Source: Candidatus Methanoperedens sp. (lineage in GTDB: Archaea > Halobacteriota > Methanosarcinia > Methanosarcinales > Methanoperedenaceae). Taken from it: a stretch of DNA of 64,000 nucleotides. Made by a program: the position numbers and the translations under genes. How positions within the stretch are numbered: the stretch's first letter is position 1; every line of letters begins with the position of its first letter. Below, piece after piece: positions 40,261 to 56,132 of the stretch. Location of the stretch: NCBI GenBank assembly GCA_012026795.1, contig VEPM01000020.1:1-64000 (forward strand), given 5' to 3'. Under the pieces are notes generated by a model that worked only from the letters and a program-made list of their open reading frames with translations, was not told the origin of the DNA and searched no databases.

Positions 40261-42330
40261 TTACTTTCTCTGTCTCAGTACGAGGTATGCTACTGCGAGC
40301 AAGCCTGCGACTGCGAATACTAACTCAAAGCCTGGCTCTGTTGGAGTTGTTGCGGCTGGTTTGGGAGTCTCTGCTACTCCTGTTTCAGCTGGTTTGGGTG
40401 TTGTCGGAACTACTGTGAGGGTTGCTGTCGCACCAGGTGTGGCTCTAACAGTTCCTCTTGGAGTTGTTACTGCCGTTCCTGTTGTAACTGTTGTTCCATT
40501 ACCGACCACGTAGTCAATCTTGGGGTAGAATCTCAAGGTGGAGCTGTTGTCAGCTATCTTGAATTTAAGTTCGCCCATGAGGGTTGTTTCCGAGTTGCTG
40601 CTCAAACTGACTGAGTTCTTGTTGGTCATGTTGATGGTACCGGTTGTGCCGCGTACTTCAAACACGCCATATTGATCTGCGGATTTGATCTCTTTGGCAG
40701 TGCTTTCATCTATGAGCCATGCATATTTGAACTGTACCATATCAGAAGTTGCGCCTGAGAAGATATTATCAACATATACTGTGAACAGGAGCGCATCTGA
40801 TTCGCCAAGGATTGTCTTTGTCTTATAGTAAACTGCTGGTTGTTTTCCGCTTGTTCCTGGTGCCTGAGCAATACCTTCATCAATTACGGCTCCATCTTTC
40901 TTTAATGTGAACCATGCCTGTCTCGGTGTTGTTCTTGCATCTATTGCATTGATGTTAATTTCATAACCTGCGCCAAGAGACCATGTTTCACCTGTTGTGA
41001 GTGTTCTCTTCTCTTCCTTGTCCATTTCTAACGCAAGTTTGGCGATCTTTGCAACATTAGTTGGGTTAACAGCTACCCATTTCTCAGCCTGCCAGCCAAC
41101 AACGCTGTAATTTGTTGCTCTGACACCTGAAGTATTTGTTACATATAGACCTTCCTTCTCATATACTTTGAAGTCAACAGGTACTATTCCTGTTCTGTAT
41201 CGAATTGTATCTTCTGGATTTGACCTGCCGGGTGCGGCCAAGAAATCTAACCGTTCTGTTGTCAGGTTATTTTTGAGGTCATAGTAGAAACCTGCAAATT
41301 TCTGGGAGTTCCATGAAGCAGCGGCTGTTCCATCGCCTTCATTCCATACAGCTCCTCTTACTTCATATGTTCCAGGGGCAGTATATTCCACAAATGGGTA
41401 GAATCTAAGGAAGCTTGAATTGTCAGCAACTCTAAATTTCAAATTTCCCATGAGGGTTGTGTCTGAGTTGCTGCTCAAGCTGACTGAGTTCTTGTTAGTC
41501 ATGTTGATGGTACCGGTTGTGCCGCGTACTTCAAACACGCCATATTGATCTGCAGATTTGATCTCTTTGGCAGTGCTTTCATCTATGAGCCATGCATATT
41601 TGAACTGTACCATATCAGAAGTTGCGCCTGAGAAGATATTATCAACATATACTGTGAACAGGAGCGCATCTGATTCGCCAAGGATTGTCTTTGTCTTATA
41701 GTAAACTGCTGGTTGTTTTCCGCTTGTTCCTGGTGCCTGAGCAATACCTTCATCAATTACGGCTCCATCTTTCTTTAATGTGAACCATGCCTGTCTCGGT
41801 GTTGTTCTTGCATCTATTGCATTGATGTTAATTTCATAACCTGCGCCAAGAGACCATGTTTCACCTGTTGTGAGTGTTCTCTTCTCTTCCTTGTCCATTT
41901 CTAACGCAAGTTTGGCGATCTTTGCAACATTAGTTGGGTTAACAGCTACCCATTTCTCAGCCTGCCAGCCAACAACGCTGTAATTTGTTGCTCTGACACC
42001 TGAAGTATTTGTTACATATAGACCTTCCTTCTCATATACTTTGAAGTCAACAGGTACTATTCCTGTTCTGTATCGAATTGTATCTTCTGGATTTGACCTG
42101 TCGGGTGCGGCCAGGAAATCTAACCGTTCTGTTGTCAGGTTATTTTTGAGGTCATAGTAGAAACCTGCAAATTTCTGGGAATTCCATGAAGCATCTGTAA
42201 GGTTATCACCCTGATTCCATACAGACCCACGTACTTCAACTTTTGTTGCCTGTACTGCTGCACTTACAGGAAATGCTACTACTAATAGCATAAACACTGC
42301 TAATACAACAGCTAATATTTTTTTCGTCAT
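40261..42330 (-). CDS. S-layer protein with two S-layer domains and PGF-CTERM anchor
   Basis: 689 residues. There is a signal peptide (about 1-25, ILAVVLAVFMLLVVAFPVSA), then two nearly identical S-layer domains of the Methanosarcina type (about 30-320 and 321-605). A Thr/Pro-rich stalk (about 605-660) and a final PGFELVFAVAGLLAVAYLVLRQRK follow: the PGF-CTERM signal that archaeosortase A processes for lipid attachment. Each domain has FAGFYYDLKNNLTTERLDFL and WSLGAGYEININAIDA. This is probably the main cell-envelope lattice protein. The two domain-coding repeats are about 99% identical in DNA over some 750 bp. Confidence 0.93.
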   Translation of the reverse strand: MTKKILAVVLAVFMLLVVAFPVSAAVQATKVEVRGSVWNQGDNLTDASWNSQKFAGFYYDLKNNLTTERLDFLAAPDRSNPEDTIRYRTGIVPVDFKVYEKEGLYVTNTSGVRATNYSVVGWQAEKWVAVNPTNVAKIAKLALEMDKEEKRTLTTGETWSLGAGYEININAIDARTTPRQAWFTLKKDGAVIDEGIAQAPGTSGKQPAVYYKTKTILGESDALLFTVYVDNIFSGATSDMVQFKYAWLIDESTAKEIKSADQYGVFEVRGTTGTINMTNKNSVSLSSNSDTTLMGNLKFRVADNSSFLRFYPFVEYTAPGTYEVRGAVWNEGDGTAAASWNSQKFAGFYYDLKNNLTTERLDFLAAPGRSNPEDTIRYRTGIVPVDFKVYEKEGLYVTNTSGVRATNYSVVGWQAEKWVAVNPTNVAKIAKLALEMDKEEKRTLTTGETWSLGAGYEININAIDARTTPRQAWFTLKKDGAVIDEGIAQAPGTSGKQPAVYYKTKTILGESDALLFTVYVDNIFSGATSDMVQFKYAWLIDESTAKEIKSADQYGVFEVRGTTGTINMTNKNSVSLSSNSETTLMGELKFKIADNSSTLRFYPKIDYVVGNGTTVTTGTAVTTPRGTVRATPGATATLTVVPTTPKPAETGVAETPKPAATTPTEPGFELVFAVAGLLAVAYLVLRQRK
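40576..42196. repeat. Near-identical 0.75-kb internal repeat in the S-layer gene
   Basis: Positions 40576-41323 and 41449-42196 match base for base apart from a handful of substitutions, with a spacing of 873 bp (291 codons). The intervening and outer parts of the two domains are more diverged. This pattern suggests recent gene conversion or duplication within the gene. Confidence 0.88.
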
Positions 42331-42717: not shown

Positions 42718-43887
42718 TTATTTCTTCTTAAGCGTTCTTATTTTATTAATCAGGATTGAACCTGTTACAATGCCCGCGAAGATAACAACCAATAGATAAT
42801 TGTTTAAATTGGCCTGATCTTCCGGTTGAGTAATTGTGGTTTCAGGACGATTATTCATTTCCCCGGTTGATTTATTTCCTTTTATTGCAAAAAATGAAAA
42901 ACCAATAGTACTGGATTCATACAGGATATTAATATTACTATTACTATACGTTCCGATCTTTCTTGTAGGTAAAGATTGCCATCCATCATCATATCGCATC
43001 ATTTCAATAGAGTCGGGATTGATATTATTGGCTTCCATCCATTCAACAGGCACCCTGAATACTACTTCGGCATGTTTTATGTTATCTGGTGTAGCATATC
43101 CAAAATACCCTGCCCAGATATTGACATTCTTATAGACCAATCCGGAAGCGCTGGATTTTACAAGGGTAGAAGTGTTTTTTAATACTTCTACGGAAGTAGT
43201 TATTTCAGCTGGATTTGAATTACCTGTAATATTTATGAAAACTATTGGATTTGTTTGTTCCTTAAACCTGTAAGAAGTTGTGACATTCTTGTAAATATAA
43301 AGATCATATTTTTCTATGAGCTCAATGTTTGTATAGTTTTCACCCGAATTACCTCCTGCTCCGGAGACAGAACCGCCTGTTTCTTTTTCCTGCTTGACAG
43401 GTGTCGAAACAGGAGCCGGATAAACTTGATTTCCATCCGGGTCAACGACCCGGACATTTTCAAGATTGATCTGTGGACCATTTGTAGAATTAAGGGCAGT
43501 AAAATTGATAATAACAAAGGTCCCGGGAATTTGAACGTTTTTTTGTCCTATAATAGATACATAGATATTTACTGCCCTGCCAAGCGAATTATCTATTACA
43601 CCGCCATTAAAAATTGTAGTCGCCCCATACTGTTTGAAGAGACTTCCTTCCGTGATGCTGTTTATCTTAAGTACGGATTTATCATACGATATATCAATCT
43701 GGGCACCTGCAATCGCTACACCCTGAGGATCAACTTTTACTCCAATATCAAAGGTCTGGCCAGCAGAAATATTGGACGGAAGCCTGTCAGGGTAAACAGC
43801 CGCAGCAATAGCAGTTGGAATAGCAGTTGATCCTGCAATAATGGCCATTAAGAAAAATAAAAAAATTTCATGGAAAACCAGTCTCAT
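42718..43887 (-). CDS. Surface protein with cohesin and PGF-pre-PGF domains
   Basis: 389 residues. There is a signal peptide (about 1-29), then a cohesin domain (about 33-160, GQTFDIGVKVDPQGVAIAGAQIDISYD...INSITEGSLFKQ), a Gly/Ser linker (about 170-185), and a PGF-pre-PGF domain (about 186-340, YDLYIYKNVTTSYRFKEQ, FINITGNSNPAEITTSVEVLKNTS, GLVYKNVNIWAGYFGYATP). A single C-terminal helix ends in KKK. The true PGF tail is missing; the helix KIRTLKKK may be a simple membrane anchor. Its ATG overlaps the preceding gene's stop (ATGA), so both are co-translated. Confidence 0.88.
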   Translation of the reverse strand: MRLVFHEIFLFFLMAIIAGSTAIPTAIAAAVYPDRLPSNISAGQTFDIGVKVDPQGVAIAGAQIDISYDKSVLKINSITEGSLFKQYGATTIFNGGVIDNSLGRAVNIYVSIIGQKNVQIPGTFVIINFTALNSTNGPQINLENVRVVDPDGNQVYPAPVSTPVKQEKETGGSVSGAGGNSGENYTNIELIEKYDLYIYKNVTTSYRFKEQTNPIVFINITGNSNPAEITTSVEVLKNTSTLVKSSASGLVYKNVNIWAGYFGYATPDNIKHAEVVFRVPVEWMEANNINPDSIEMMRYDDGWQSLPTRKIGTYSNSNINILYESSTIGFSFFAIKGNKSTGEMNNRPETTITQPEDQANLNNYLLVVIFAGIVTGSILINKIRTLKKK

Positions 43888-45770
43888 GTATTTTCTCCAA
43901 AGTGCTGGGCAGTAATTGTAATATCTGAAATATCAACAATCCCATCCATGTTAACATCATAATCCGGATATGGTGGATTGACCTTTTCAGTGAAATGCTG
44001 TCCGATTATTGTCAGGTCCCCAATATCAACTACTCCATTTTTATTAACATCATATCTTGGATATACATTATTTATGTAAACGGTTGTTATCCCCGTAACA
44101 GATACTGTCCCATCGCTCACTGATATTTCAATAGTATGGTTGCCTGAACTGGCATAGTTAGTTCTCCAGGAATAACTTGCTGTTGTACTCACCAGTTTAT
44201 CATCCAGTTTAATTATGTAGCCAAGTGTGTCATTATCAGGATCGTTTGCTATAATGCTGATCGGAATAGTCTGTGTTTCGTTAAATGCTGAGCCATTGTA
44301 CGGGAAAGAAGTAAATGTAGGCGGCCTATTGGCGTTATTGACCGTTATCATTATATTTTCAAAATCCGTCACACCGCCATCAGATACTTCAAAATGAATA
44401 TCCGTATAATTACCCGATTGTGTGAAACCTGGTGTCCATAAAAAGGTCCTGTTTGCGGGGACAAACACAGCGCCAGATGGAAGATTTGTTGCGGAATATA
44501 TAAGCGAATCTCCATTAGCGTCAGTTGCTGATAAAGTGAAAATAAGAGCCTGGCCTTCATCGATGGTTCTATTTCCAATTGTATCGAGTACTGGCGGACT
44601 GTTTATTAATACGCTCCCATTGGTCAGATTGAAAGCCACCGGATATCCGGCCTGGTCACTTATTATTATGTCTGAAATATTAACAACTGATGTTCCTGAT
44701 GAACCAATTGCCATAAAGTCAATAGTAATGAACGTCCCTACAGTTGTAACATTATAAGGACCGAGGATGGACACATAAATATTGTTTACTCTTCCTGACG
44801 TATTATCTATTACACCGCCATTAAAGATCGTGTTTGCTCCGTTCTGTTTGAAGAGAGTTCCCTCCGTGACGCTATTCACCTTAAGGATCGATCCGTTATA
44901 TGTAAGAGAAAGCTGTGCGCCTGAGATCGGATTACCCATTGGATCAATTGATATGTTAAGGCGCAAAGTCTGCCCCGGATTTACGATCTTGCTTGAAGGC
45001 GTTACGATAATATTTGAACGCTTATTCACAGTTATTGTGATATTCTCAAAATCCCTCAATGTTCCATCTGAAACTTCAAAATGTACATTCTGATAAATGC
45101 CGGATTGTGTGAAATCAGGCATCCAGCTAAAAGTCTTTGTGGCCGGGTTAAAAGTCGCCCCGGCTGGCAGGTTTGAAGCTGAGTATGTAAGAATATCCGA
45201 CTCGTTATCAGTTGCAGATAAAGTGAAAGTAAGTGCCTGGCCTTCAACAATTTTCTTATCACCTATCCCCAGAAGTACTGGCGGGTTGTTAATGGTTATA
45301 CTTCCGTTATATATTACTTGGGGAACAGGCTGGGCATCAGAATTGCTGATCTTAACATTTGAAAGATTTATTCCGGATGCACCTGACGAACCGATGGCTG
45401 TAGCATTAACAATGATGAATGTGCCAGGATTTGATACATTTGTCCTGCCAATTACTACACCAAAGACATTTATCACAGTACCCGTTGAATTATTTATAAT
45501 GCCATTTGAAAAGAAAGTGTTTGCTCCATTCTGTTTGAATAAGTTCCCTTCAGTAATATTATTTATTCTGATCTTTGTCTGGTCAAACTCGATATTTAAC
45601 TGCGCACCTGCAATTGCTGCTCCCTGCGGATCTATTGTTATATTCAAATTAAAAGTTCCTCCCTGGTTCGCGAGGTAATTTGCAGGAAATACTTTTACAT
45701 CTGCAGCCATTGCCTGTCCATTTATTATTATCATTACGAATAATATCAGTCCGAATTTTATGTGTGTCAT
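43884..45770 (-). CDS. Secreted cohesin-dockerin protein
   Basis: 628 residues. There is a signal peptide (about 1-22), cohesin 1 (about 25-160), an Ig-like domain (about 165-250), cohesin 2 (about 255-385), a second Ig-like domain (about 390-475), a third beta domain (about 480-565), and a C-terminal dockerin (about 568-628). The dockerin has two calcium-binding segments, DVNKNGVVDIGDLTIIGQHF and DVNMDGIVDISDITITAQHF. The protein thus carries both halves of the cohesin-dockerin interaction and has no membrane anchor. It probably docks on the cohesin of the neighbouring protein at 42718. Confidence 0.88.
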   Translation of the reverse strand: MTHIKFGLILFVMIIINGQAMAADVKVFPANYLANQGGTFNLNITIDPQGAAIAGAQLNIEFDQTKIRINNITEGNLFKQNGANTFFSNGIINNSTGTVINVFGVVIGRTNVSNPGTFIIVNATAIGSSGASGINLSNVKISNSDAQPVPQVIYNGSITINNPPVLLGIGDKKIVEGQALTFTLSATDNESDILTYSASNLPAGATFNPATKTFSWMPDFTQSGIYQNVHFEVSDGTLRDFENITITVNKRSNIIVTPSSKIVNPGQTLRLNISIDPMGNPISGAQLSLTYNGSILKVNSVTEGTLFKQNGANTIFNGGVIDNTSGRVNNIYVSILGPYNVTTVGTFITIDFMAIGSSGTSVVNISDIIISDQAGYPVAFNLTNGSVLINSPPVLDTIGNRTIDEGQALIFTLSATDANGDSLIYSATNLPSGAVFVPANRTFLWTPGFTQSGNYTDIHFEVSDGGVTDFENIMITVNNANRPPTFTSFPYNGSAFNETQTIPISIIANDPDNDTLGYIIKLDDKLVSTTASYSWRTNYASSGNHTIEISVSDGTVSVTGITTVYINNVYPRYDVNKNGVVDIGDLTIIGQHFTEKVNPPYPDYDVNMDGIVDISDITITAQHFGENT

Positions 45771-46101
45771 AATGATCGTGAGTAATGAACATGGGTATGA
45801 AGAATATGGCCATTAAAATCTCATGAAAAAATCAACCACAATCCCTCACAATGGCTTCAATAAGACATATTTAAAGAATAATGGGTCTCTTAAGACCAAT
45901 ATATGGAATTCATGCTTTTTTAATTCCAATATTTCAGTAATACAGGCTTCTTTAAATTATATAATACATATTATTTATTTACTGGTGTAATTATTCCATG
46001 AAAAACCGAATATGGCGGCTTACAGTATTTTCCTAACATTTTATTATCAAGTGATTATTTAATAATGTCAATATATAGATCATATTGAGGTGTTATGAAA
46101 T
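45771..46101. other. 331-bp divergent gap
   Basis: No gene is visible. A GGTCT...AGACC hairpin lies near 45885-45900, and GGAATT...AATTCC near 45905-45930. A/T-rich TATA-like stretches at 45955-45985 may be promoters for the divergent surface and cytochrome-module operons. Confidence 0.45.
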
Positions 46102-46269
46102 ATGCGAAATAAAACCAAATATATGATAGCTGCAATAGCTGCGGCAGCTTTTATGACAGCAGCTTATTATCTCCCGGCAGAAACATTCCTTGCTGCCTTT
46201 GCAGGAGGATTGTTCCTTATACCGGCATCTATCTTTGTGTATATGATGCAATCAGTGGCAAGAGCCTGA
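46102..46269 (+). CDS. 55-residue two-helix membrane protein (paralogue of 51286)
   Basis: A small hydrophobic protein, MRNKTKYMIAAIAAAAFMTA with YYLPAETFLAAFAGGLFLIP. The YxLP(A/S)E(T/S)F.AF..G segment recurs in the gene at 51286, so the two are paralogues. GAGGTG lies about nine bases before ATG 46102. Both sit directly before a member of the RHH/V4R-like family, suggesting a functional pair. Confidence 0.65.
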   Translation: MRNKTKYMIAAIAAAAFMTAAYYLPAETFLAAFAGGLFLIPASIFVYMMQSVARA

Positions 46270-46369
46270 TTCCATTAAAGATCCAGGCATAATAATGAAG
46301 CGGGAGGAAGAGGCACAAGGTCCTGTGTGAAACTTCATGCGGGATCTATTTTACATTTTAAGAGGGACC

Positions 46370-47806
46370 ATGAACATTTCAAGACACATATCCATTGACG
46401 AGGAATATCTGAAAAAAATGGAAGCATATATAAAGAGACACAATGGGAACATGGGGGCTGCGTTAAGGGATATGATTTACCAGGCCGGAAAATACAATCA
46501 GGCTTTCAACTCATCGGCGGTAGATACTTCTTTGTTTAACTGGATGTTACAGGAGATAGATGACATATTGGTTCCCGGGGACGTTCTTGATAACCTGATC
46601 AACCCGATATTGATAAATTCGATGGAAAGACTTGAAGAAAACATAAACCGGAGGTTCACAGGACTTGAATGGGGAATAAACCTTCGTTTGAAATGCGATA
46701 ATGACAATTTTCCAACAAAGGTACTTTTGACAATAAGAGGCACACCCCGGAAAATAAAATTTATTGCCGGATTAATGTCACAGTTCCTCGTGAAAAATTC
46801 ACTCACCCGCTCACCGCTGGCAGTACAGTCAGTCGTTAATTTTAATGAGTGTATAAAAATTGAATTATCCCGGTCAGATAAAACAGAAGCAGAAGATAGT
46901 TTAATCACTTTTTTCGGAGGGTTAAACGGAATTTTGGGAACAGTAAAGGGCCATCCTGATTTCTGGAACCCGATTATCAAATGTCATAACCTCAGCAATT
47001 ACAATATGGTCACAATCCACAGGAATTCTTTTGAAGATATACTTGCTAATGATATACCGGCAGGGGAAGTGACGATAGAATTTCTTGCAAAAAGACCAAT
47101 TCGGGAAATACCTCTTAAAGATCTGCTCTGGCTCTTAAAGGAAGTTTATGAGAATTCAAGGATTGTTGACAGAGTGGAAATCGAAGATGATAAACTGGTC
47201 ATTTTCCATAATTACAGGGCAAAACAAGCAGTAGATAAATTAAAAAAGATCGTTTTAACACTGCTGGAATCAAACGGCCACATGTACGACGGAAAATCAA
47301 CAGAAAATATGATCGTATTGACACATAGGCCTGATGTCGGTTTAAAGATCAATGAATTAATTGATAATTTGAAAACAAGCAGCAATAGAGTTGACCGGGA
47401 ATTATTGATGTTCATTACTTTCTTAAACGGCCTTAAGGACATTCCCGATATTCCTTTATCTCTTTCTGTTCTGGGAAGAAGACTTGGTAAATCCATAATG
47501 CAACAATATGAATTGGAAAATAACATCAAGGAATGGAACCTGGAAAAATTCAAAAATGCTTTTGAAACTATTGACTCAAAGCTTCACAGGGAAAGCGAAT
47601 GGAAAACGGATGGGAAAAACCTGTATTATACTGTCAGGAAATGCAGCATTGCCCGGAATGATCCCGGTAAATGCATTTGCCACACTACAAGGGAGACATT
47701 TAAAGGCGCAATGGACTATGCCTTCAGTAATAAAGCAGAATTGGATGTTCAAAAATTATTATCTCATGGTGATAATTTTTGCGAGGTGGTATTACGAATT
47801 CAATAA
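46370..47806 (+). CDS. RHH/V4R-like family protein, paralogue 1
   Basis: 478 residues from ATG 46370 (MNISRHISIDEEYLKKM); an upstream in-frame ATG 46337 is not conserved in the paralogues. Residues 1-45 look like a ribbon-helix-helix (RHISIDEEYLKKMEAYIKRHNGNMGAALRDMIYQAG). The middle has two related alpha/beta segments (about 95-200 and 255-340, VEIEDDKLVIFHNYRAKQAVDKLKKIV). The end (about 420-478) has RKCSIA, CICHTTRETFKGAMDYAF and HGDNFCEVVLR, which resembles the V4R sensor domain. The family is unknown to me. A 7-heme cytochrome gene follows after 29 bases. Confidence 0.7.
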   Translation: MNISRHISIDEEYLKKMEAYIKRHNGNMGAALRDMIYQAGKYNQAFNSSAVDTSLFNWMLQEIDDILVPGDVLDNLINPILINSMERLEENINRRFTGLEWGINLRLKCDNDNFPTKVLLTIRGTPRKIKFIAGLMSQFLVKNSLTRSPLAVQSVVNFNECIKIELSRSDKTEAEDSLITFFGGLNGILGTVKGHPDFWNPIIKCHNLSNYNMVTIHRNSFEDILANDIPAGEVTIEFLAKRPIREIPLKDLLWLLKEVYENSRIVDRVEIEDDKLVIFHNYRAKQAVDKLKKIVLTLLESNGHMYDGKSTENMIVLTHRPDVGLKINELIDNLKTSSNRVDRELLMFITFLNGLKDIPDIPLSLSVLGRRLGKSIMQQYELENNIKEWNLEKFKNAFETIDSKLHRESEWKTDGKNLYYTVRKCSIARNDPGKCICHTTRETFKGAMDYAFSNKAELDVQKLLSHGDNFCEVVLRIQ

Positions 47807-47835
47807 AACCAGATTTCAACATAATAAAAAATCGG

Positions 47836-48696
47836 ATGAGCAGGATAATAGTCCTGGCATTGATCGGTATTTTCTTTTTGACCGGGGCATCTGCACAGGA
47901 TGAGAATACGGATATTTCCTGTTATCATTGCCATCCGGCACAGGTGAATGAATTCCGGGCAAGCATACATTTCAATAAAAATACTTGTGCGGACTGTCAT
48001 GGCGGAGACATAAATATCAGTGGAAGTGTTGTTTCCATTAATGTGATGCATACGAACTTTACTGGAACGCCTTCACCTGTAAATGTCACGAACTTCTGTT
48101 CAAAATGTCATGGGAATGAAACCAGGGTATATGAAGACAGCATTCACTGGAAAAGACTGAAGGAAGGAAGAACATCAGCGTCGTGTACCGATTGTCACGG
48201 CATCCATAATATCCTTTCATCGAAAAACCCCAATTCTTCGACATACTCGGCAAATGTACCGGAGACATGTGCAACATGCCATGAAAACCAGACCAGAATG
48301 CAAGCTTTATATTATGGTATCAGGACAGACAGGTTTGACACTTACAAAAAATCTTTCCATTATAAGTCTTATGCAGGCGGCGGGAGGTTACTTGCAAGCT
48401 GTTCGGATTGTCATGAAAACCACGATACAAGGCAGGCAAGTGATCCGGAATCAGCAATAAATCCCGCGAATTTGCCGTCTACCTGCGGAAAAAACGGGTG
48501 TCATCCGGGTGCAAATAATGTATTTATTTATGGGGGTAAAGTCCATGAAGAGCAGTCTGTTTACCTGCTTTCCCTTGATGCAAAAAGGCTTGTAACGTAT
48601 TTCTATATACTTATGATCCTTTTTGAACTTACCTTTACAATAGGGCTTATTTTCCTCGGGATTACATCAAATTTTGAAATAAGAAGGAGGCATTGA
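47836..48696 (+). CDS. Seven-heme membrane-anchored cytochrome c
   Basis: 286 residues from ATG 47836. A signal peptide (about 1-21) is followed by six CxxCH sites (CYHCH, CADCH, CSKCH, CTDCH, CATCH, CSDCH) and one CX4CH (CGKNGCH), then a C-terminal transmembrane helix (about 247-273) and a basic end (RRRH). The spacing resembles NapC/NrfH-like or c554-type multiheme proteins but with an anchor at the C-terminus. A cytochrome b gene follows at once, so it is likely a membrane quinol-linked electron-transfer pair. Confidence 0.88.
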   Translation: MSRIIVLALIGIFFLTGASAQDENTDISCYHCHPAQVNEFRASIHFNKNTCADCHGGDINISGSVVSINVMHTNFTGTPSPVNVTNFCSKCHGNETRVYEDSIHWKRLKEGRTSASCTDCHGIHNILSSKNPNSSTYSANVPETCATCHENQTRMQALYYGIRTDRFDTYKKSFHYKSYAGGGRLLASCSDCHENHDTRQASDPESAINPANLPSTCGKNGCHPGANNVFIYGGKVHEEQSVYLLSLDAKRLVTYFYILMILFELTFTIGLIFLGITSNFEIRRRH

Positions 48697-48698
48697 TC

Positions 48699-49523
48699 AT
48701 GGTAGAATTAAAATTCAAGAGGTTTACCCTGAACCAGCGCATACAGCATATAATATTTTTTACCTCATTTATCCTGCTTGCGTATACGGGTTTTCCTCTC
48801 AAGTTCCCCGAAGAATGGTGGTCAAGGTGGATGATAGAATCAGTAGGAGGATTCGATAACAGGACATTTATCCATCATTTTTCCGGCCTTGCAATGATAG
48901 GAGTGAGTATATATCATGTTGTTTACCATATACTTGAGAAACCCCGCTATGAAATACTGTTCAATCTTAAAGATCTCGAGGACTTCAAGCAGCAGGTACG
49001 GTATTTCCTGAGATATTCTGATGAGCATCCGAAATTCGGGAGATATACCTGGAAACAGAAATTCGAATATTTCGGGGCAGGATTCGGAGCAGTCATAATG
49101 GGTTTTACGGGATTATTGATGTGGCAGCCTTTTGAGGCCATGAAATATTTCCCGATAGGATTTGTGCAGATAGCGAACCTGTTTCATACATGGGAAGCTG
49201 TCCTTGCTTCCATTGCAATCTTTATAGGGCACTTCTATGATGAGCAGTTCGGGAAATTCCCAAATCTTGCATGGCTGACAGGGAATATTCCGGAAGAAGA
49301 AATGCGGCATGAGCATCCCCTGGAATATGAAGAAGCCATGAAAAGCCAGAAAATTGCAAATACGGAAAATAGGGAGCATAAGGAACACAAAAATATATTG
49401 ATCGTGGGATTTGCGAAACTTGTGTTCACGATAATCTTCCTTACAATTTGCATCTGGATGGTGTGGATATCGTATAACGTTCTTATGGAAGCTGTTAAGA
49501 CGTATGTCCTGAACGTGGTATAG
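48699..49523 (+). CDS. Cytochrome b subunit (FdhI/DUF4405-like)
   Basis: 274 residues from ATG 48699, eight bases after GGAGG; TTG 48693 is less likely. There are four or five helices. Histidines likely to ligate heme b are in LNQRIQHIIFF, TFIHHFSGLAM, SIYHVVYH and NLFHTWEAVLASIAIFIGHFYDEQF. It should carry electrons across the membrane between quinone and the multiheme cytochrome. C-terminal soluble segment (about 195-235) is charged. Confidence 0.87.
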   Translation: MVELKFKRFTLNQRIQHIIFFTSFILLAYTGFPLKFPEEWWSRWMIESVGGFDNRTFIHHFSGLAMIGVSIYHVVYHILEKPRYEILFNLKDLEDFKQQVRYFLRYSDEHPKFGRYTWKQKFEYFGAGFGAVIMGFTGLLMWQPFEAMKYFPIGFVQIANLFHTWEAVLASIAIFIGHFYDEQFGKFPNLAWLTGNIPEEEMRHEHPLEYEEAMKSQKIANTENREHKEHKNILIVGFAKLVFTIIFLTICIWMVWISYNVLMEAVKTYVLNVV

Positions 49524-49668
49524 CATGAAAGGTTTTCAAAAACGATTTTTTCTTTTTTATTGTCATTTTATGTCATAAAAAATCTTTAATGGACACAAAA
49601 CCCGGATATCTTCGCAAATACTTTTTTAGGATTGTCATTTTATATGTTTAATAAAGGAGTGAGGAAAA

Positions 49669-51111
49669 ATGAATATTACACGGCATATCTCACTTGAAGA
49701 TGAATATATTGAGAAATTAAAACCCTATGCTGATAAGCATAACGGGAATTTCGGCGCAGCATTAAGGGATATGATCTGCCAGGCCGGGAAGTATGATACC
49801 AGGATCAATTCATCGGCAATAGACCATTCCTTATTTAACTGGATACTCGGGGAAATAGATGAAAAACTCCTTCCTTCTGAGATACTCAATGAATTCATAA
49901 ATCCGGTAATGATGAATTCAATGGACAACCTGGAAAATTATCTTAACCGGAAATTCGGGGAACTTAAGTGGGGAATTTGCATCACATTAAGATCTGACAA
50001 TGATATTTTCCCGGGTGAAGTATTGATGGAGATAAAAGGCGATAATCAGAAGATAAAGTTCATTACCAGCTTAATTGCCCAGTATATTGTCAAAAACTCA
50101 CTTAAAATCATACCTCTTGAAGTCATGTCGGTCATTAATACTAATGAAGGTATAAAAGTAGAATTATCAGGTTCAAACTATAAAGATGCACTCCTTAGCC
50201 TTGAGACTTTTTTTGGAAAGACAGACGAGCTTATCAGGACTATAAAGACGCGCCCGGAATTCTGGAAATCCCTGTTCAACAGGCATCTTGTAAGTAATTA
50301 TAATATGGTCACTGTCCACAGGAATTATTTTGAGGATCTGCTTGAGGGTAAAATACCCGCATGGGAGATCACAATAGAAAATATAGCAAAAAAACCCATA
50401 CGGGAAATCCCTCTTACGGAAATGCTTCATTTAATAAAAGAGGTCTTTGAAACATCAAGGATAGTTAACAGGGTGGAAATCGATAAGGATACACTTGTTT
50501 TATTCCACAGCTACAGGGACAGGGCAGCTATTGAAAAACTAAGAAAAAGCGCTCATGCGCTCCTTGAGGCAAATGGCCATATGTACGATGCCAGGGCAAC
50601 AGCCAACATCATAATACTGACCCACAGGTCTGACGTCGGGATAAAAATAAATGAGATCGTTAAGACTTTGAAAAACAGCAATACCAGGCTTGACCAGGAG
50701 CTTCTGGTATTTCTTGGATTCTTAAAAGGATTAAAGGACATTCCTGATATTCCCATATCTCTGACATCCCTGGGTCGAAGGACAGGCAAATCCTTAATGC
50801 AGGGGTATGAACAGGAAAAACTTATCAAGACATGGACACTGGATAACTTCCAGAAGGCATTACAGAATATAGATGCAAGACTCCACAGGGAAAGCGAATG
50901 GAAACTAGAAGGAACGGACCTGCTCTATACAATCAGGAAATGTAATATTGCAGGAAATGGAAATGAATTTGATAATTACGTCTGTCATACTATGAGGGAG
51001 ACATTTAAGGGGGCTTTAAGTTACGCTTTTGGAAACAAAGCCCAGATGCATGCGAAACATTTACTGACACACGGAGATAATTACTGCGAGGTGATTATAA
51101 GGGTGCATTGA
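49669..51111 (+). CDS. RHH/V4R-like family protein, paralogue 2
   Basis: 480 residues. N-terminal RHISLEDEYIEKLKPYADKHNGNFGAALRDMICQAG, middle EIPLTEMLHLIKEVFETSRIVNRVEIDKDTLVLFHSYRD, and end RKCNIA, YVCHTMRETFKGALSYAFGNKA, HGDNYCEVIIRV. The GGAG before ATG 49669 is good. It follows the cytochrome b gene after 145 bases that hold two copies of TTGTCATTTTAT. It lacks an adjacent cytochrome gene of its own. Confidence 0.7.
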   Translation: MNITRHISLEDEYIEKLKPYADKHNGNFGAALRDMICQAGKYDTRINSSAIDHSLFNWILGEIDEKLLPSEILNEFINPVMMNSMDNLENYLNRKFGELKWGICITLRSDNDIFPGEVLMEIKGDNQKIKFITSLIAQYIVKNSLKIIPLEVMSVINTNEGIKVELSGSNYKDALLSLETFFGKTDELIRTIKTRPEFWKSLFNRHLVSNYNMVTVHRNYFEDLLEGKIPAWEITIENIAKKPIREIPLTEMLHLIKEVFETSRIVNRVEIDKDTLVLFHSYRDRAAIEKLRKSAHALLEANGHMYDARATANIIILTHRSDVGIKINEIVKTLKNSNTRLDQELLVFLGFLKGLKDIPDIPISLTSLGRRTGKSLMQGYEQEKLIKTWTLDNFQKALQNIDARLHRESEWKLEGTDLLYTIRKCNIAGNGNEFDNYVCHTMRETFKGALSYAFGNKAQMHAKHLLTHGDNYCEVIIRVH

Positions 51112-51129
51112 CCTTATTTTTAAAAATAA

Positions 51130-51240
51130 TCCTGTCATTTGCCATATCTTGTATTTATATGGCCATTCAATGCCATATCATGCCTCTTTTATGCCATATT
51201 ATGTCTATCCATGTCTTTCCATGCTATCTTCCTGTCAAAT
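51130..51240. repeat. Degenerate GCCAT-rich repeats
   Basis: Between paralogue 2 and the small membrane gene, short units such as GCCATAT, GGCCATTCA, ATGCCATAT, TCCATGTCT recur about seven times in 110 bp with variable spacing. The open frame across it (from 51139) is low-quality and I treat it as non-coding. It may be an array of regulator sites. Confidence 0.5.
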
Positions 51241-51285
51241 ATTCTTTTAACATTGGCATTAGATAATCATGATTGGGTGAAGCAT

Positions 51286-51567
51286 ATGTATAATTGGAAA
51301 AGGTATATTGCAGCCGGAATTGTCATAGGGACTGTCTATTTCCTGCCATCTGAAAGTTTTATAGCTTTCCTGACAGGATGGGTAATCCTCTTACCAATCG
51401 CAGCGGCTGTTTTCCTGGCAGTTGGACTGCGGGAATACATGAAAGACAGGAAGAACACGATCACGGTCTCAGTAAGAGCAAATGAGACCATGAACGCGCT
51501 TGCACGAAGAGAAGCAGAATTGAAACGGGAAAAAGAACTTCTCTATGAGCAATTTGGAAAAGTGTGA
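51286..51567 (+). CDS. Small membrane protein with C-terminal coiled coil (paralogue of 46102)
   Basis: 93 residues from ATG 51286. Two helices (about 5-22 and 25-50) with YFLPSESFIAFLTG match the gene at 46102. A cytoplasmic coiled coil follows (LARREAELKREKELLYEQ). It precedes paralogue 3 by 31 bases, repeating the small-membrane-protein/RHH-V4R pairing seen upstream. Confidence 0.65.
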   Translation: MYNWKRYIAAGIVIGTVYFLPSESFIAFLTGWVILLPIAAAVFLAVGLREYMKDRKNTITVSVRANETMNALARREAELKREKELLYEQFGKV

Positions 51568-51598
51568 ATGAAGCTCGGACCGGGAAAGCGGGGTAATT

Positions 51599-53041
51599 AT
51601 GATCGTTACAAGACATATCTCTCTTGATAATGATTGCATAGAGAAAATGGAACCTTATGTTGAAAAACATAAAGGGAATTTTAGCGCTGCAATAAGAGAG
51701 ATCATAGACCGGGCCGGGAAAAACAGTGAACTTGAGAATATTTCCACAATTGACAATACGCTGTTCAAATGGATGCTCAATGAAATCGATGGTTTGCTTG
51801 TCCCGGACAATGTAATGGATGATCTGATAAGTCCCATGCTTATAAATTCAATGGGAAAACTTGAAGACCATCTCAAGCACAAGTTCACAGAACTGGAATG
51901 GGATGTTGACCTTTCCCTGAAATACGATAGTGATGCATCTGCATCAGACGTATTGATAGAAGTCAAAGGTTCGCCCCAGAAAATAAAATTCGTTGCAAGG
52001 ATGCTTGCCCAGTATCTTGTGAAAAACTCACCTGAGCATGCTCCGCTTGAGATAGCTTCGGTTTTTAATCTTGATGGAGGTATAAGAGTTGAACTATCAA
52101 AATCAAACAAGAAGGAAGGATATGACAGCCTTATAACCTCTTTTGGAGGTTTGAATGAAGTTATCCAGGCCATCAAAAGCCGCCCGGATTTTTGGAAATC
52201 AATAATCACCGGACATCTCCTGAGCAATTACAATATGGTAACTGTTCACAGGAACTACTTTGAGGATCTCCTTTCAGGCAAAGTTCCGATGGGTGAGATA
52301 ACGATAGAAACTCTTGCCAAGAAACCAATCCAGGAAATTCCTCTTTGCGAAATGCTGTCCCTGGTTAAGGAAGTATATGAAACATCAAGAGTTGTGGACC
52401 GGGTGGAGGTTGACCGGGAGAACCTCATATTGTTCCATAATTACAGGAACAAAGAGGTAATAGACAAACTGAAAACAAGCATAGTCTCACTTCTGGAAGC
52501 GAATGGCCACCTGTATGATGCAAAGTCAACTGCAAATATGGTTGTGCTGACACACAGGCCGGATGTGGGAATCAGGATCAACGAGATAGTAAGCAACCTC
52601 AAGATCAGTAACAGCAGGGTTGACCAGGACCTGATAATGTTCATGGCTTTCTTAAAAGGGCTAAAGAACATTCCTGATATACCTGTATCTCTGACAGCCC
52701 TGGGGAGAAGGATAGGGGTATCCCTGATGCAGGAGTACGAAAAAGAGAACAATATAAAAGGCTGGGAATTCCAGAATTTCCGGAAAGCCCTTGAAATAAT
52801 TGATTCTAAACTCCACAGGGAAAGCGAATGGAAACCGGATGGGAAAAATCTGCTCTATACAATCAAGAAATGCAATATTGTGACTGAAGGTAATTCAATC
52901 GATAAATATATCTGCCATACCATAAGGGAAACTTTCAAGGGGGCAGTGAACCACGCTTTTGGAAACAGGGCAGAACTTGATATCAGGAAATTACTGTCGC
53001 ATGGAGACAATTGTTGTGAGGTGTTAATACGAGTACCATGA
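51599..53041 (+). CDS. RHH/V4R-like family protein, paralogue 3
   Basis: 480 residues. N-terminal RHISLDNDCIEKMEPYVEKHKGNFSAAIREIIDRAG, middle EIPLCEMLSLVKEVYETSRVVDRVEVDRENLILFHNYRN, HRPDVGIRINEI, and end KKCNIV, YICHTIRETFKGAVNHAFGNRA, HGDNCCEVLIRV. All three copies conserve the Cys of KC(N/S)I, the CHT...ETFKGA and the GDxxCEV motifs. It directly precedes the cytochrome/Fe-S/NrfD operon. Role inferred: a cytoplasmic sensor-regulator. Confidence 0.7.
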   Translation: MIVTRHISLDNDCIEKMEPYVEKHKGNFSAAIREIIDRAGKNSELENISTIDNTLFKWMLNEIDGLLVPDNVMDDLISPMLINSMGKLEDHLKHKFTELEWDVDLSLKYDSDASASDVLIEVKGSPQKIKFVARMLAQYLVKNSPEHAPLEIASVFNLDGGIRVELSKSNKKEGYDSLITSFGGLNEVIQAIKSRPDFWKSIITGHLLSNYNMVTVHRNYFEDLLSGKVPMGEITIETLAKKPIQEIPLCEMLSLVKEVYETSRVVDRVEVDRENLILFHNYRNKEVIDKLKTSIVSLLEANGHLYDAKSTANMVVLTHRPDVGIRINEIVSNLKISNSRVDQDLIMFMAFLKGLKNIPDIPVSLTALGRRIGVSLMQEYEKENNIKGWEFQNFRKALEIIDSKLHRESEWKPDGKNLLYTIKKCNIVTEGNSIDKYICHTIRETFKGAVNHAFGNRAELDIRKLLSHGDNCCEVLIRVP

Positions 53042-53121
53042 AAATAAAATCAGGAATTTTGGATAAAATCGGGATCGCAGAAGAAACAATACAAAAAATT
53101 AAACTATATAATAGGTGTTAA
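53038..53121 (+). CDS. Possible 27-residue leader peptide
   Basis: A tiny frame starts at ATG 53038 overlapping the stop of paralogue 3 (ATGA) and ends one base before the ATG of the cytochrome gene region. It would be a basic helix (MKIKSGILDKIGIAEETIQK). ATGA coupling is typical of this genome, but a frame this short can arise by chance. Confidence 0.3.
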   Translation: MKIKSGILDKIGIAEETIQKIKLYNRC

Positions 53122-53122
53122 A

Positions 53123-53929
53123 ATGAATACATTACTTGAATTCATAACGTTTGTCAAAGGGGTTGAATACCTGATTGTAATAGCGTTTTGCTTCGGGTTT
53201 ATCGCCCTGTGGGTACTTGTAAACTCCAGGGATAGGATGAAAAGGCCAACAATAGTATCTTTCGTTATTCCCCTTGCACTGGTCTTTGGGGCCGGAGCAA
53301 TCGTACTTACATCTTCAGATAATTCTGATGTTGCATCAGCCCCGGATATTTCAAACGTATCAGTGGCAATACAACCCGGTAATATCAAAGAGACCAGGCT
53401 TGCTTCAAATAGCGGGTGGCCAACAGTAAATAAATCCGAGTATCTTTCAATCAGATACGGGCCAGCGACTGAGTTTCATAAGATAATGAGTGAAAAGGTC
53501 AGTTGCACTACATGCCATCATAACAGCGGGGATGAGATCCATGCATGTAAGGATTGCCATGATAGCCCGACCAATCCGCATAATTCAACAAAACCGGGCC
53601 TGAAGGCTGCTTACCACGAGCGGTGCATATCCTGTCATCCTGAAGATTTCAATGGACCTGACAGCTGCACTAAATGCCACACAGGGGAGCTAAAAGCATC
53701 AGCCGTAGTTTCAGCTCCAATCCGTCCGCACCAGCTTACATGGGATACATGTAACAGGTGCCATCCGAAAGGGATACCAAATGGCGGCGTGGAGTCAAAG
53801 ATCGTTTATCATGACAGCTGTCTTAAGTGCCATTCAACAGGAGTCGCAGGTGCGGCGTTAGTACCTGATGACCATGCAGGAAGAGCTGGCAATACGTGCC
53901 AAGGCTGTCATAAACCAGCCGGAGGATAA
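53123..53929 (+). CDS. Seven-heme cytochrome c with N-terminal membrane anchor
   Basis: 268 residues. Two N-terminal helices (about 14-33 and 43-62) anchor a domain with seven CxxCH sites: CTTCH, CKDCH, CISCH, CTKCH, CNRCH, CLKCH, CQGCH. The pattern with paired sites and separate histidines (EFHKIM, IRPHQLT, IVYHDS) resembles class III cytochromes of Hmc-type complexes. AGGTG precedes ATG 53123. The Fe-S subunit follows after three bases, so it is the first gene of a three-gene operon. Confidence 0.9.
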   Translation: MNTLLEFITFVKGVEYLIVIAFCFGFIALWVLVNSRDRMKRPTIVSFVIPLALVFGAGAIVLTSSDNSDVASAPDISNVSVAIQPGNIKETRLASNSGWPTVNKSEYLSIRYGPATEFHKIMSEKVSCTTCHHNSGDEIHACKDCHDSPTNPHNSTKPGLKAAYHERCISCHPEDFNGPDSCTKCHTGELKASAVVSAPIRPHQLTWDTCNRCHPKGIPNGGVESKIVYHDSCLKCHSTGVAGAALVPDDHAGRAGNTCQGCHKPAGG

Positions 53930-53932
53930 ATT

Positions 53933-54871
53933 ATGATAAACAGGAGAAACCTGCTTAAAATAGGTGGAACGGTTGTTGCAGCAAGTATCCTTGGCAGCGA
54001 AACCGTTCTTGGCTCACAGGATTTCGAAGGAAATCCCGACCGCCTGGGTATGCTTACCGATACAACAAGGTGCATCGGATGCCGCCGCTGTGAAGCTGCA
54101 TGTAACAAGGCTAATAATCTTCCAGATGCGAAAACATCATTTGAAGATACTTCTGTTTTCGAAGAAAAGAGGAAACCTTACGTCGCAGATGTGCAGTCAT
54201 ATACAGTTGTCAACAGGTTCGAGGGTGAGGACGGAAAACCGGTATATCGCAAGATCCAGTGCATGCATTGCGATGAGCCGGCATGTGTTACAGCCTGCCC
54301 GGTAGCTGCACTGACAAAATCAAAAGAAGGACCCGTGGTATGGAATGAAAAGGTGTGTATCGGATGCCGTTATTGTATCACAGCATGTCCGTTCTATGTC
54401 CCGGCCTTTGAATATTCAAGCGCTTTTGAACCGAAAATCCAGAAATGTTTCTTGTGCAACCAGAGGATAAAAGACGGTCTCATTCCTGCCTGCGCTGAAG
54501 CATGCCCTGTTGAAGCCATACAGTTCGGAAAAAGGAAAGACCTGATGAAAATGGCAAAGCAGAGAATATGGGGGGAGCCTGATAAATATATCGACCACGT
54601 GTATGGTGAAACCGAAGCCGGAGGAACTGGCTGGTTGTATATTTCAAAACTGCCATTTGAGAAAATGGGGTTCCCCGAAAATATCGGGACAACATCATTT
54701 CCGAAACTGACAAAGGATTTCCTGGGTATGGTAAATCTAACGCTTGTCACATGGCCTGCACTGCTTGGAGGTTTTTATATGGCGACACATAAGAAACCGC
54801 ATGAAGAACATGGGCAGGAGAATAAGAAGGAGAATGAGAAAAAACCTGAGGAGGATATAAAACATGAATGA
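53933..54871 (+). CDS. Fe-S subunit with four [4Fe-4S] clusters (HybA/HmcB/NrfC-like)
   Basis: 312 residues. A twin-arginine-type N-terminus (NRRNLLKIGGTVVAAS) suggests export on the outer side. Cysteine clusters are CIGCRRCEAAC, CMHCDEPACVTAC, CIGCRYCITAC and CFLCNQRIKDGLIPACAEAC, enough for four [4Fe-4S] clusters. A C-terminal transmembrane helix (about 262-282) and a charged tail follow. It passes electrons between the cytochrome and the NrfD-type subunit. It overlaps the next gene by eight bases. Confidence 0.92.
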   Translation: MINRRNLLKIGGTVVAASILGSETVLGSQDFEGNPDRLGMLTDTTRCIGCRRCEAACNKANNLPDAKTSFEDTSVFEEKRKPYVADVQSYTVVNRFEGEDGKPVYRKIQCMHCDEPACVTACPVAALTKSKEGPVVWNEKVCIGCRYCITACPFYVPAFEYSSAFEPKIQKCFLCNQRIKDGLIPACAEACPVEAIQFGKRKDLMKMAKQRIWGEPDKYIDHVYGETEAGGTGWLYISKLPFEKMGFPENIGTTSFPKLTKDFLGMVNLTLVTWPALLGGFYMATHKKPHEEHGQENKKENEKKPEEDIKHE

Positions 54872-56132
54872 ATTTGGAAACGAAACTGTGGAAAGACATG
54901 TGTATCCCGAAAATGAACTGACAGGTGCGGAAATAATTTCTAACTGGTTCAGGGAGAAGATATTTTTGGGACTATCGTTCAAAGAATATATGAAGACGCT
55001 CATCACCCCTCTTAATATTGGTGCGGGTCTCATTGTCTTTGCGGGCCTATTCCTGATAGCAATGCGGTTTATTTACGGACTTGACCAGGTAACGGAAGCT
55101 TCGAATGAACAGCCCTGGGGACTATTCCTGACATGGGGATTATTCAGCGGAGTTCCATTCTCAGCATCAGGATTTGTAATCGGGACAGGAGTTTATATTT
55201 TCGGGGTCAAGAGATATCAGCCGATTGTCAAGAATGCGATCCTGCTGGGTTTCCTGGGATACCTGTTTGCAGTAATATTCCTTATGATAGACCTTGGCCG
55301 CCCGTGGAGAATATATTATCCTATGGCCATATCATTCGGGACTGCATCAGTAATGTTCCTTGTGGCCTGGCATGTAGCCCTGTATCTCTCGGTGCAGTTC
55401 TTTGAATTCAGCCCATCGATCCTGGCCTGGCTAAACCAGGGATACCTGCGAAAGATAGCTGTGAGCATGACACTGGGTCTTACAATATTTGGAGTAATGC
55501 TCTCTACACTGCACCAGTCGGCTCTTTCAGCCATGTTCCTCCTTGCGCCCGGTAAGGTGCATCCGCTATGGTATACATCATACCTGCCATGGCTTGCCCT
55601 CATTTCAGCAATAGGAGCTGCGATGGCCCTGATGATCGTGGTCAGTAAACTCACAACGATATACTTCAGGAACAGGGCATCGCCGGAATACCTTGGAAGC
55701 ATTGATGATGTTACGATCGGTCTTGGGAAAGCCTCTTCGCTTGTCATGTTTACATACCTGGGAATGAGATTGATAAGCATTACACATGAAGGCGCATGGA
55801 AGTACCTCGATACGCCAACTGGTCACTGGTTTATGGTTGAGATATTTATCCTTGCGCTGGTCCCATTCCTGTATTATTACGGGGTAATGAAGAAGAACGT
55901 AAGACTTATCCAGGTAACAGGTGTTGTGACGATGATCGGAATAATCCTTAACAGGTTCAACCTGACATTGCTGACATTCAACTATCAACTTCCTAAAGGA
56001 GAACTCTTCTACTGGAAGGAAGTGCTGGTAGTAATATCAGTTATCATAATACAGATACTGGTTTACAGATGGATCGTCAACAGGATGCCTGTCCTTCGGG
56101 ATCATCCCGATTATCCGAATGACGGGCATTAA
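54864..56132 (+). CDS. NrfD/HybB-type membrane subunit
   Basis: 422 residues with about nine to ten helices. The conserved LDLGRPWR (here IDLGRPWRIYYP) and the LSTLHQSALSAMFLLAPGKVHPLWYT segment are hallmarks of the HybB/NrfD group, which reacts with menaquinone and may move protons. With the Fe-S and cytochrome c subunits it forms a quinone:cytochrome oxidoreductase like Hmc or Nrf. No catalytic molybdopterin subunit is encoded here. Confidence 0.92.
   Translation: MNEFGNETVERHVYPENELTGAEIISNWFREKIFLGLSFKEYMKTLITPLNIGAGLIVFAGLFLIAMRFIYGLDQVTEASNEQPWGLFLTWGLFSGVPFSASGFVIGTGVYIFGVKRYQPIVKNAILLGFLGYLFAVIFLMIDLGRPWRIYYPMAISFGTASVMFLVAWHVALYLSVQFFEFSPSILAWLNQGYLRKIAVSMTLGLTIFGVMLSTLHQSALSAMFLLAPGKVHPLWYTSYLPWLALISAIGAAMALMIVVSKLTTIYFRNRASPEYLGSIDDVTIGLGKASSLVMFTYLGMRLISITHEGAWKYLDTPTGHWFMVEIFILALVPFLYYYGVMKKNVRLIQVTGVVTMIGIILNRFNLTLLTFNYQLPKGELFYWKEVLVVISVIIIQILVYRWIVNRMPVLRDHPDYPNDGH

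Follow-up and report, generated by a model that had tools for sequence, protein, structure and literature searches.

What do three closely related proteins do when their genes are interleaved with two modules of multiheme cytochrome genes in an anaerobic methanotroph? The question is raised by a stretch of 64,000 nucleotides (contig VEPM01000020.1, positions 1 to 64,000; hereafter the window) from a 3.59-Mb Candidatus Methanoperedens genome, whose nearest named relatives are BLZ2, LFW-24 and METP1. Judging from sequence and a structure model, we consider that the three paralogues are probably one-component regulators that act on their own genes and on two operons encoding menaquinone:cytochrome c oxidoreductases. 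Ten genes, all on the + strand, make up the cluster at 46102-56132:

46102..46269, +: small membrane protein of 55 residues, leading gene of operon 1, preceding paralogue 1
46370..47806, +: paralogue 1, 478 residues, clade 1, putative ribbon-helix-helix (RHH)-alpha/beta-alpha/beta-V4R protein, before a 7-heme cytochrome c/cytochrome b pair
47836..48696, +: 7-heme cytochrome c, from its likely start (listed open reading frame from 47779)
48693..49523, +: b-type cytochrome, FdhI/Ni_hydr_CYTB-like
49669..51111, +: paralogue 2, 480 residues, with a promoter of its own and no cytochrome behind it
51286..51567, +: small membrane protein of 93 residues, paralogous to that at 46102, leading gene of operon 3, preceding paralogue 3
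51599..53041, +: paralogue 3, 480 residues, before the HmcA-like cytochrome
53123..53929, +: HmcA-like 7-heme cytochrome
53933..54871, +: HmcB-like 4Fe-4S protein (NF045715 E 4.5e-114, 380.7 bits, under the cut-off of 420)
54864..56132, +: HmcC/NrfD-like membrane subunit (NF045714 E 2.3e-115, 385.9 bits, under the cut-off of 550)

This cluster matches, in gene order and content and read from the opposite end, Metp_01713-01722, which the part of Ouboter et al. 2024 (PMC10874420) drawn on here gives as NrfD-like, 4x[4Fe-4S], 7-heme, three unknown, cytochrome b, 7-heme and two unknown proteins. It is described there as one of two clusters strongly up-regulated on an electrode compared with nitrate. 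By gene order, the three paralogues correspond to Metp_01716, 01718 and 01721, and the small membrane proteins to 01717 and 01722; in that part of the paper these five genes are labelled 'unknown proteins' and no regulator is proposed. Modules of this type were classed as menaquinone:cytochrome c oxidoreductases by Leu et al. 2020 (PMC7327174).

Part of the evidence for regulation lies in the promoters. A shared core, TCAAAT-N4-TTTTAA-N2-TTGkCATTAgATA, was found upstream of all three transcription units:

46043..46084, +: core of operon 1 (E 1.1e-4, rank 3 of 127,940)
49610..49651, +: core of paralogue 2 (E 1.1e-7, rank 2 of 127,940)
51232..51272, +: core of operon 3 (E 1.0e-10, rank 1 of 127,940)

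To avoid circularity, the ranks were obtained by scoring all 127,940 window positions with a matrix trained solely on copy-3 promoters of other species. The core of copy 1 was the weakest, scoring 9.4 with this matrix against 7.7 for the next-best site in the window. The E values come from a sequence-only covariance model, and the genome-wide searches with it score up to 150 candidates per genome. Among the candidates scored in this genome, E values below 1e-3 were given solely by the three window cores, by their variants on a 99.2% identical contig, and by one further site (G000:C1:164292-164324, that is L188:6293-6325; E 7.9e-7). The last was absent from the training set of the model, and lies just upstream of a lone small membrane protein gene with no family gene beside it. 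The extra strong core sites inspected in other Methanoperedens genomes likewise precede small membrane protein or family genes. In 31 genomes of a family that we take to be Methanosarcinaceae (f5), the best core match was partial (E 4e-4).

The second promoter feature is a short palindrome, TGNCA, which occurs 198 times in 51 promoters, whereas dinucleotide shuffles give 41; the selected core itself accounts for about 50 of the 198. Distances between paired boxes were in excess at 10/11, 20/21, 30/31 and 40/41 bp; the 51 promoters are related, so that z-scores overstate their independence, but the repetition of boxes lies inside each promoter. At the named loci, chains of at least four phased boxes were found solely upstream of family genes or their small membrane partner. 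Each of the three units has one box downstream of its TATA-like element and ahead of its start. Further boxes lie upstream of paralogues 2 and 3:

49561..49575, +: pair of TGNCA boxes with a 10-bp step, upstream of paralogue 2
51159..51215, +: six-box ATGNC array in the copy-3 promoter, at 51159, 51170, 51180, 51191, 51201 and 51211, in steps of 10-11 bp

A genome search for a literal triple TGNCA with exact 5-bp gaps gave no match, because the steps alternate between 10 and 11 bp. RHH dimers that bind side by side, as in Arc and MetJ, use short palindromes on one helix face, and a spacing of 10-11 bp is what cooperative binding by RHH proteins would lead one to expect. The original prediction had guessed at a regulator of electron transfer without noticing either the promoter core or the phased boxes, which strengthen the case for a regulatory role.

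The association with cytochromes proved strong but specific, being confined to two modules. Clade 3 of the family precedes the HmcABC/NrfD module, and clade 1 precedes the 7-heme cytochrome and cytochrome b. A search for HmcC in 31 Methanoperedens genomes found 26 places in 25 genomes, and each of the 26 has a family gene in front of it, in the same orientation and at a distance of roughly 1.5-2 kb; one of these family genes is broken by stops. Likewise, a family gene adjoins 21 of the 22 places with a close cytochrome b, all but G029:C229. No family member was found near a second cytochrome b/6-heme clade (43-50% identity) in the two genomes inspected. The linkage to multiheme cytochromes claimed at the outset therefore stands as near-absolute for these two modules, and does not extend to cytochromes in general. 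In the window, 7-heme cytochrome operons follow copies 1 and 3, as had been noticed, and these two copies are preceded by related small membrane proteins (46102 and 51286; 35% identity over 37 residues, E 2e-7). The cytochrome behind paralogue 1 carries its seven hemes on six CX2CH motifs and one CX4CH. Its open reading frame is listed from 47779; the true start is probably at 47836, with a predicted signal peptide MSRIIVLALIGIFF, and with this start paralogue 1 and the cytochrome need not overlap.

The reading frames of 478-480 residues were confirmed, and are 57-59% identical from end to end; the conserved motifs KC(N/S)I, CHT.RETFKGA and HGDxxCEV are present in all three. A scan of the three proteins against Pfam and NCBIfam matched no model, and domains emerged from isolated ends, family profiles and modelling. 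Pfam RHH_1 matched 7 of 20 isolated N-termini of relatives (best E 4.6e-4), and the family profile aligned weakly with the RHH of NikR (E 0.05-0.1). An AlphaFold2 monomer model built from 44 sequences (mean predicted local distance difference test score, pLDDT, 74.5; predicted template modelling score, pTM, 0.39) shows a conserved N-terminal segment followed, as an RHH would require, by helices at 11-23 and 28-41; the RHH strand is not formed in it, and residues 1-6 have pLDDT below 50. Two alpha/beta modules follow at 85-182 and 249-335. A PDB search with these modules modelled alone returned no convincing fold (best E 4.5e-3, mainly whole-length mismatches). We also considered that one module arose from the other by internal duplication; a profile comparison gave this no support (probability 0.2%), despite the similar look of their modelled secondary structures.

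The C-terminus is modelled as a helical part with four strands. Pfam V4R matched 10 of 17 isolated C-termini (best E 5.4e-4) and MetOD1 matched 3 of 17; the C-terminal profile matched TRAPPC3 (6aq3, E 1.4e-4), a solved eukaryotic cousin of V4R. Foldseek on the model also returned TRAPPC3 on top (E 1.2e-4, probability 1.00), followed by H-NOX and the MopR sensor, all of one superfold, so that a V4R/TRAPPC3-like fold was found by profile and by structure comparison alike. The resemblance to RHH and V4R originally suggested was found by profile for both parts, for RHH in relatives of the window copies, and by fold for V4R; the opposite outcome did not appear. Together, remote profile matches and the model support an architecture of an N-terminal RHH, two alpha/beta modules without known family, and a C-terminal V4R/TRAPPC3-type domain.

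Three cysteines mark this domain. C425, C439 and C473 are invariant across 44 Methanoperedens rows, and are found in 26-27 of the 28 relatives of a wider alignment (A3). The spacing from C439 to C473 is 34 residues in all members with the three cysteines, except for one with 36; C206 and C240 of MsvR, an archaeal one-component redox regulator of methanogens that also ends in a V4R domain, likewise have a spacing of 34 (PMC3729527). However, the position of the middle MsvR cysteine, C232, is never Cys in the aligned family members, and C425 is an added near-invariant cysteine with no counterpart in MsvR. In addition, MsvR has a helix-turn-helix in place of the RHH and lacks the alpha/beta middle. 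By alignment, then, the cysteine site is related to that of MsvR but rearranged; the paralogues are not MsvR proteins, because both the cysteine arrangement and the DNA-binding domain differ.

Other known systems share single parts. MetOD1 (PF18546; PMC5847659) belongs to the V4R/H-NOX superfamily and occurs in methanogens, but it stands alone or behind receiver and PAS domains, and a fusion to RHH-alpha/beta is not described there. The N-terminal RHH segment of NikR aligns weakly with the family profile; the ACT nickel-binding domain of NikR had no match in the paralogues, their C-terminus being of V4R type instead. The phenol-sensing V4R domains of MopR, XylR and DmpR have the same fold (5kbh, Foldseek E 5e-3), whereas the paralogues have no Fis-type helix-turn-helix part and gave no match to an AAA+ domain, V4R being their last domain. 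Zinc in MopR is held by three Cys and one Glu; of these ligands the paralogues presumably keep just the outer two Cys positions. A literature search combining ANME-2 (ANME, anaerobic methanotrophic archaea) and V4R found nothing.

In the mechanism that we propose, the N-terminal RHH would dimerise and bind TGNCA palindromes as putative operators, with several dimers side by side where boxes recur every 10-11 bp. Each paralogue would control its own operon, and hence the cytochromes transcribed behind it. The units would be small membrane protein-copy 1-cytochrome c-cytochrome b, copy 2 alone, and small membrane protein-copy 3-HmcA-HmcB-HmcC, with presumed co-transcription in the two units that start with a small membrane protein gene. 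Judged from the position of the box that follows the TATA-like element and precedes the gene start, regulation is probably by repression. The V4R-type domain with its three near-invariant cysteines would be the sensor of thiol/redox state, of a bound metal, or of a small hydrophobic ligand such as a quinone. Redox sensing is plausible; that thiol, metal or quinone is the input we put forward tentatively. Such a switch would let the cell select the menaquinone:cytochrome c oxidoreductase suited to the available electron acceptor.

Several observations weigh against regulation by these proteins. The window paralogues themselves were not matched by the RHH model, and the V4R score of paralogue 2 (13.2 bits) does not reach the Pfam gathering cut-off of 31. 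With a pTM of only 0.39, the model places the domains relative to one another no more than tentatively. The promoter element was not found in ANME-2-like relatives outside Methanoperedenaceae, and it is absent from the C2-type paralogue of the same genome, so that not every member can be autoregulated. In the part of Ouboter et al. 2024 (PMC10874420) used here, electrode induction is given for only some genes of the cluster, some being expressed in both conditions. Finally, binding of the paralogues to the shared promoter DNA is something we infer from sequence, and we found no literature report of their binding to TGNCA boxes.

In a different role, the paralogues would work in the cytoplasm, helping to assemble the two oxidoreductases or handling ligands for them; they would be co-expressed with the oxidoreductases, the RHH-like part would serve to dimerise them, and another regulator would read the promoter. 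In favour of this, the genes stand next to those of the complexes and are probably transcribed with them. Domains of the V4R/TRAPP fold are also known as scaffolds and carriers of ligands, the profile match to RHH is weak, and a small membrane protein gene retains the promoter without a neighbouring family gene. We nevertheless regard this role as unlikely, as phased short palindromes fit RHH operators, and the promoter element tracks the gene family and its small membrane partner rather than cytochromes generally.

If the paralogues are regulators, their input might still be heme or a gas, as in H-NOX of the same fold. H-NOX structures are among the top Foldseek matches and the genes adjoin those of heme proteins, but the YxSxR heme-binding motif of H-NOX was found in none of the aligned C-termini (0/44, 0/28 and 0/17), and it is cysteines that are conserved, with two in the positions they have in MsvR. 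Heme sensing, which the original prediction had offered beside redox sensing, was rejected for want of this motif, and an input of this kind is very improbable. A small hydrophobic protein before an RHH-like protein, as in operons 1 and 3, also recalls a toxin-antitoxin pair. Such a pair is harder still to credit for a 480-residue protein with a sensor-like C-terminus, inherited vertically at a fixed position, whose small partner genes also occur alone under the same promoter.

The family extends beyond this genome. Full-length fused members, one to several per genome, occur in Methanoperedenaceae and in three families of the same order (f2, f3 and f4), taken from gene content as ANME-2a/b/c-like and GoM-Arc1-like. 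In 393 genomes of the phylum, the Methanosarcinaceae-like family had solely forms of about 350-380 residues without V4R, and another family (f10) had forms of about 240 residues; the fused form was found solely in ANME-2-like families, while methanogens have shorter forms without V4R. No relatives were found in a viral collection. In a tree of 86 full-length members, a supported branch splits copy-3 from copy-1 genes, and the copies at each position form their own clades across Methanoperedens. Judged from this tree, the copy-1 and copy-3 arrangements are older than the sampled species; the triplication noted at the outset is old, and neither recent nor local.

Relatives elsewhere keep varied company. 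Short forms were found at these loci:

L125:8069-11797, L127:8027-11861, L126:8589-9716, L128:8388-9527, L129:7893-8969: short Methanosarcinaceae-like relatives without V4R

Such short forms include a tandem triple and one that adjoins the mtr operon at its mtrH end and may regulate mtr. A full-length relative lies upstream of an mtr operon in an f2 genome (L089:1262-11072). In other f2 loci (L078, L080, L086, L087, L088), a relative and an Rnf-like operon meet tail-to-tail; this operon, recognised as Rnf by its gene order and by sequence starts, carries cytochrome b together with an 8-heme cytochrome. In f3 (L081, L084, L085) a relative is near Mrp-type antiporter and universal-stress genes. 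A divergent full-length Methanoperedens clade (L094, L095, L096), two of whose three members lack some of the cysteines, precedes genes resembling sensor kinases and receivers. In one Methanoperedens nitroreducens assembly the copy-3 gene is in two reading frames (L028:1895-3368).

Around the cluster, positions 42857-51250 of the window are 99.2% identical to an 8.5-kb contig (G000:C5:1-8532, L043). This contig represents a strain variant within the assembly or else the product of a recent duplication, and because of it six full-length paralogues are counted instead of four. Two neighbouring cohesin-like exported proteins (42718-45770), divergent from the cluster, occupy the same place in BLZ2 and LFW-24. 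An S-layer-like protein (40261-42330) contains a unit of about 280 residues twice in tandem, in nearly identical copies.

Anaerobic methanotrophs retain much of the methane formed in anoxic sediments, and alternate among nitrate, metals, electrodes and partner bacteria. The cytochromes of these organisms have been catalogued, and no regulator is proposed in the papers cited here; the paralogues provide named candidate regulators and a defined promoter element. More speculatively, the family may be specific to ANME-2-like lineages, a V4R sensor having been fused to an older Methanosarcinales RHH-alpha/beta protein; it could then sense redox or quinone state through the rearranged cysteine triad and, by way of TGNCA operators in phase with the helix, determine which of the menaquinone:cytochrome c oxidoreductase operons is switched on. 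If this is true, no earlier circuit controlling extracellular electron transfer in archaea that oxidise methane is known to us. As the fused form follows ANME-2-like lineages and methanogens keep the sensorless form, it may mark the coming of electron export under control when methanogenesis was reversed.

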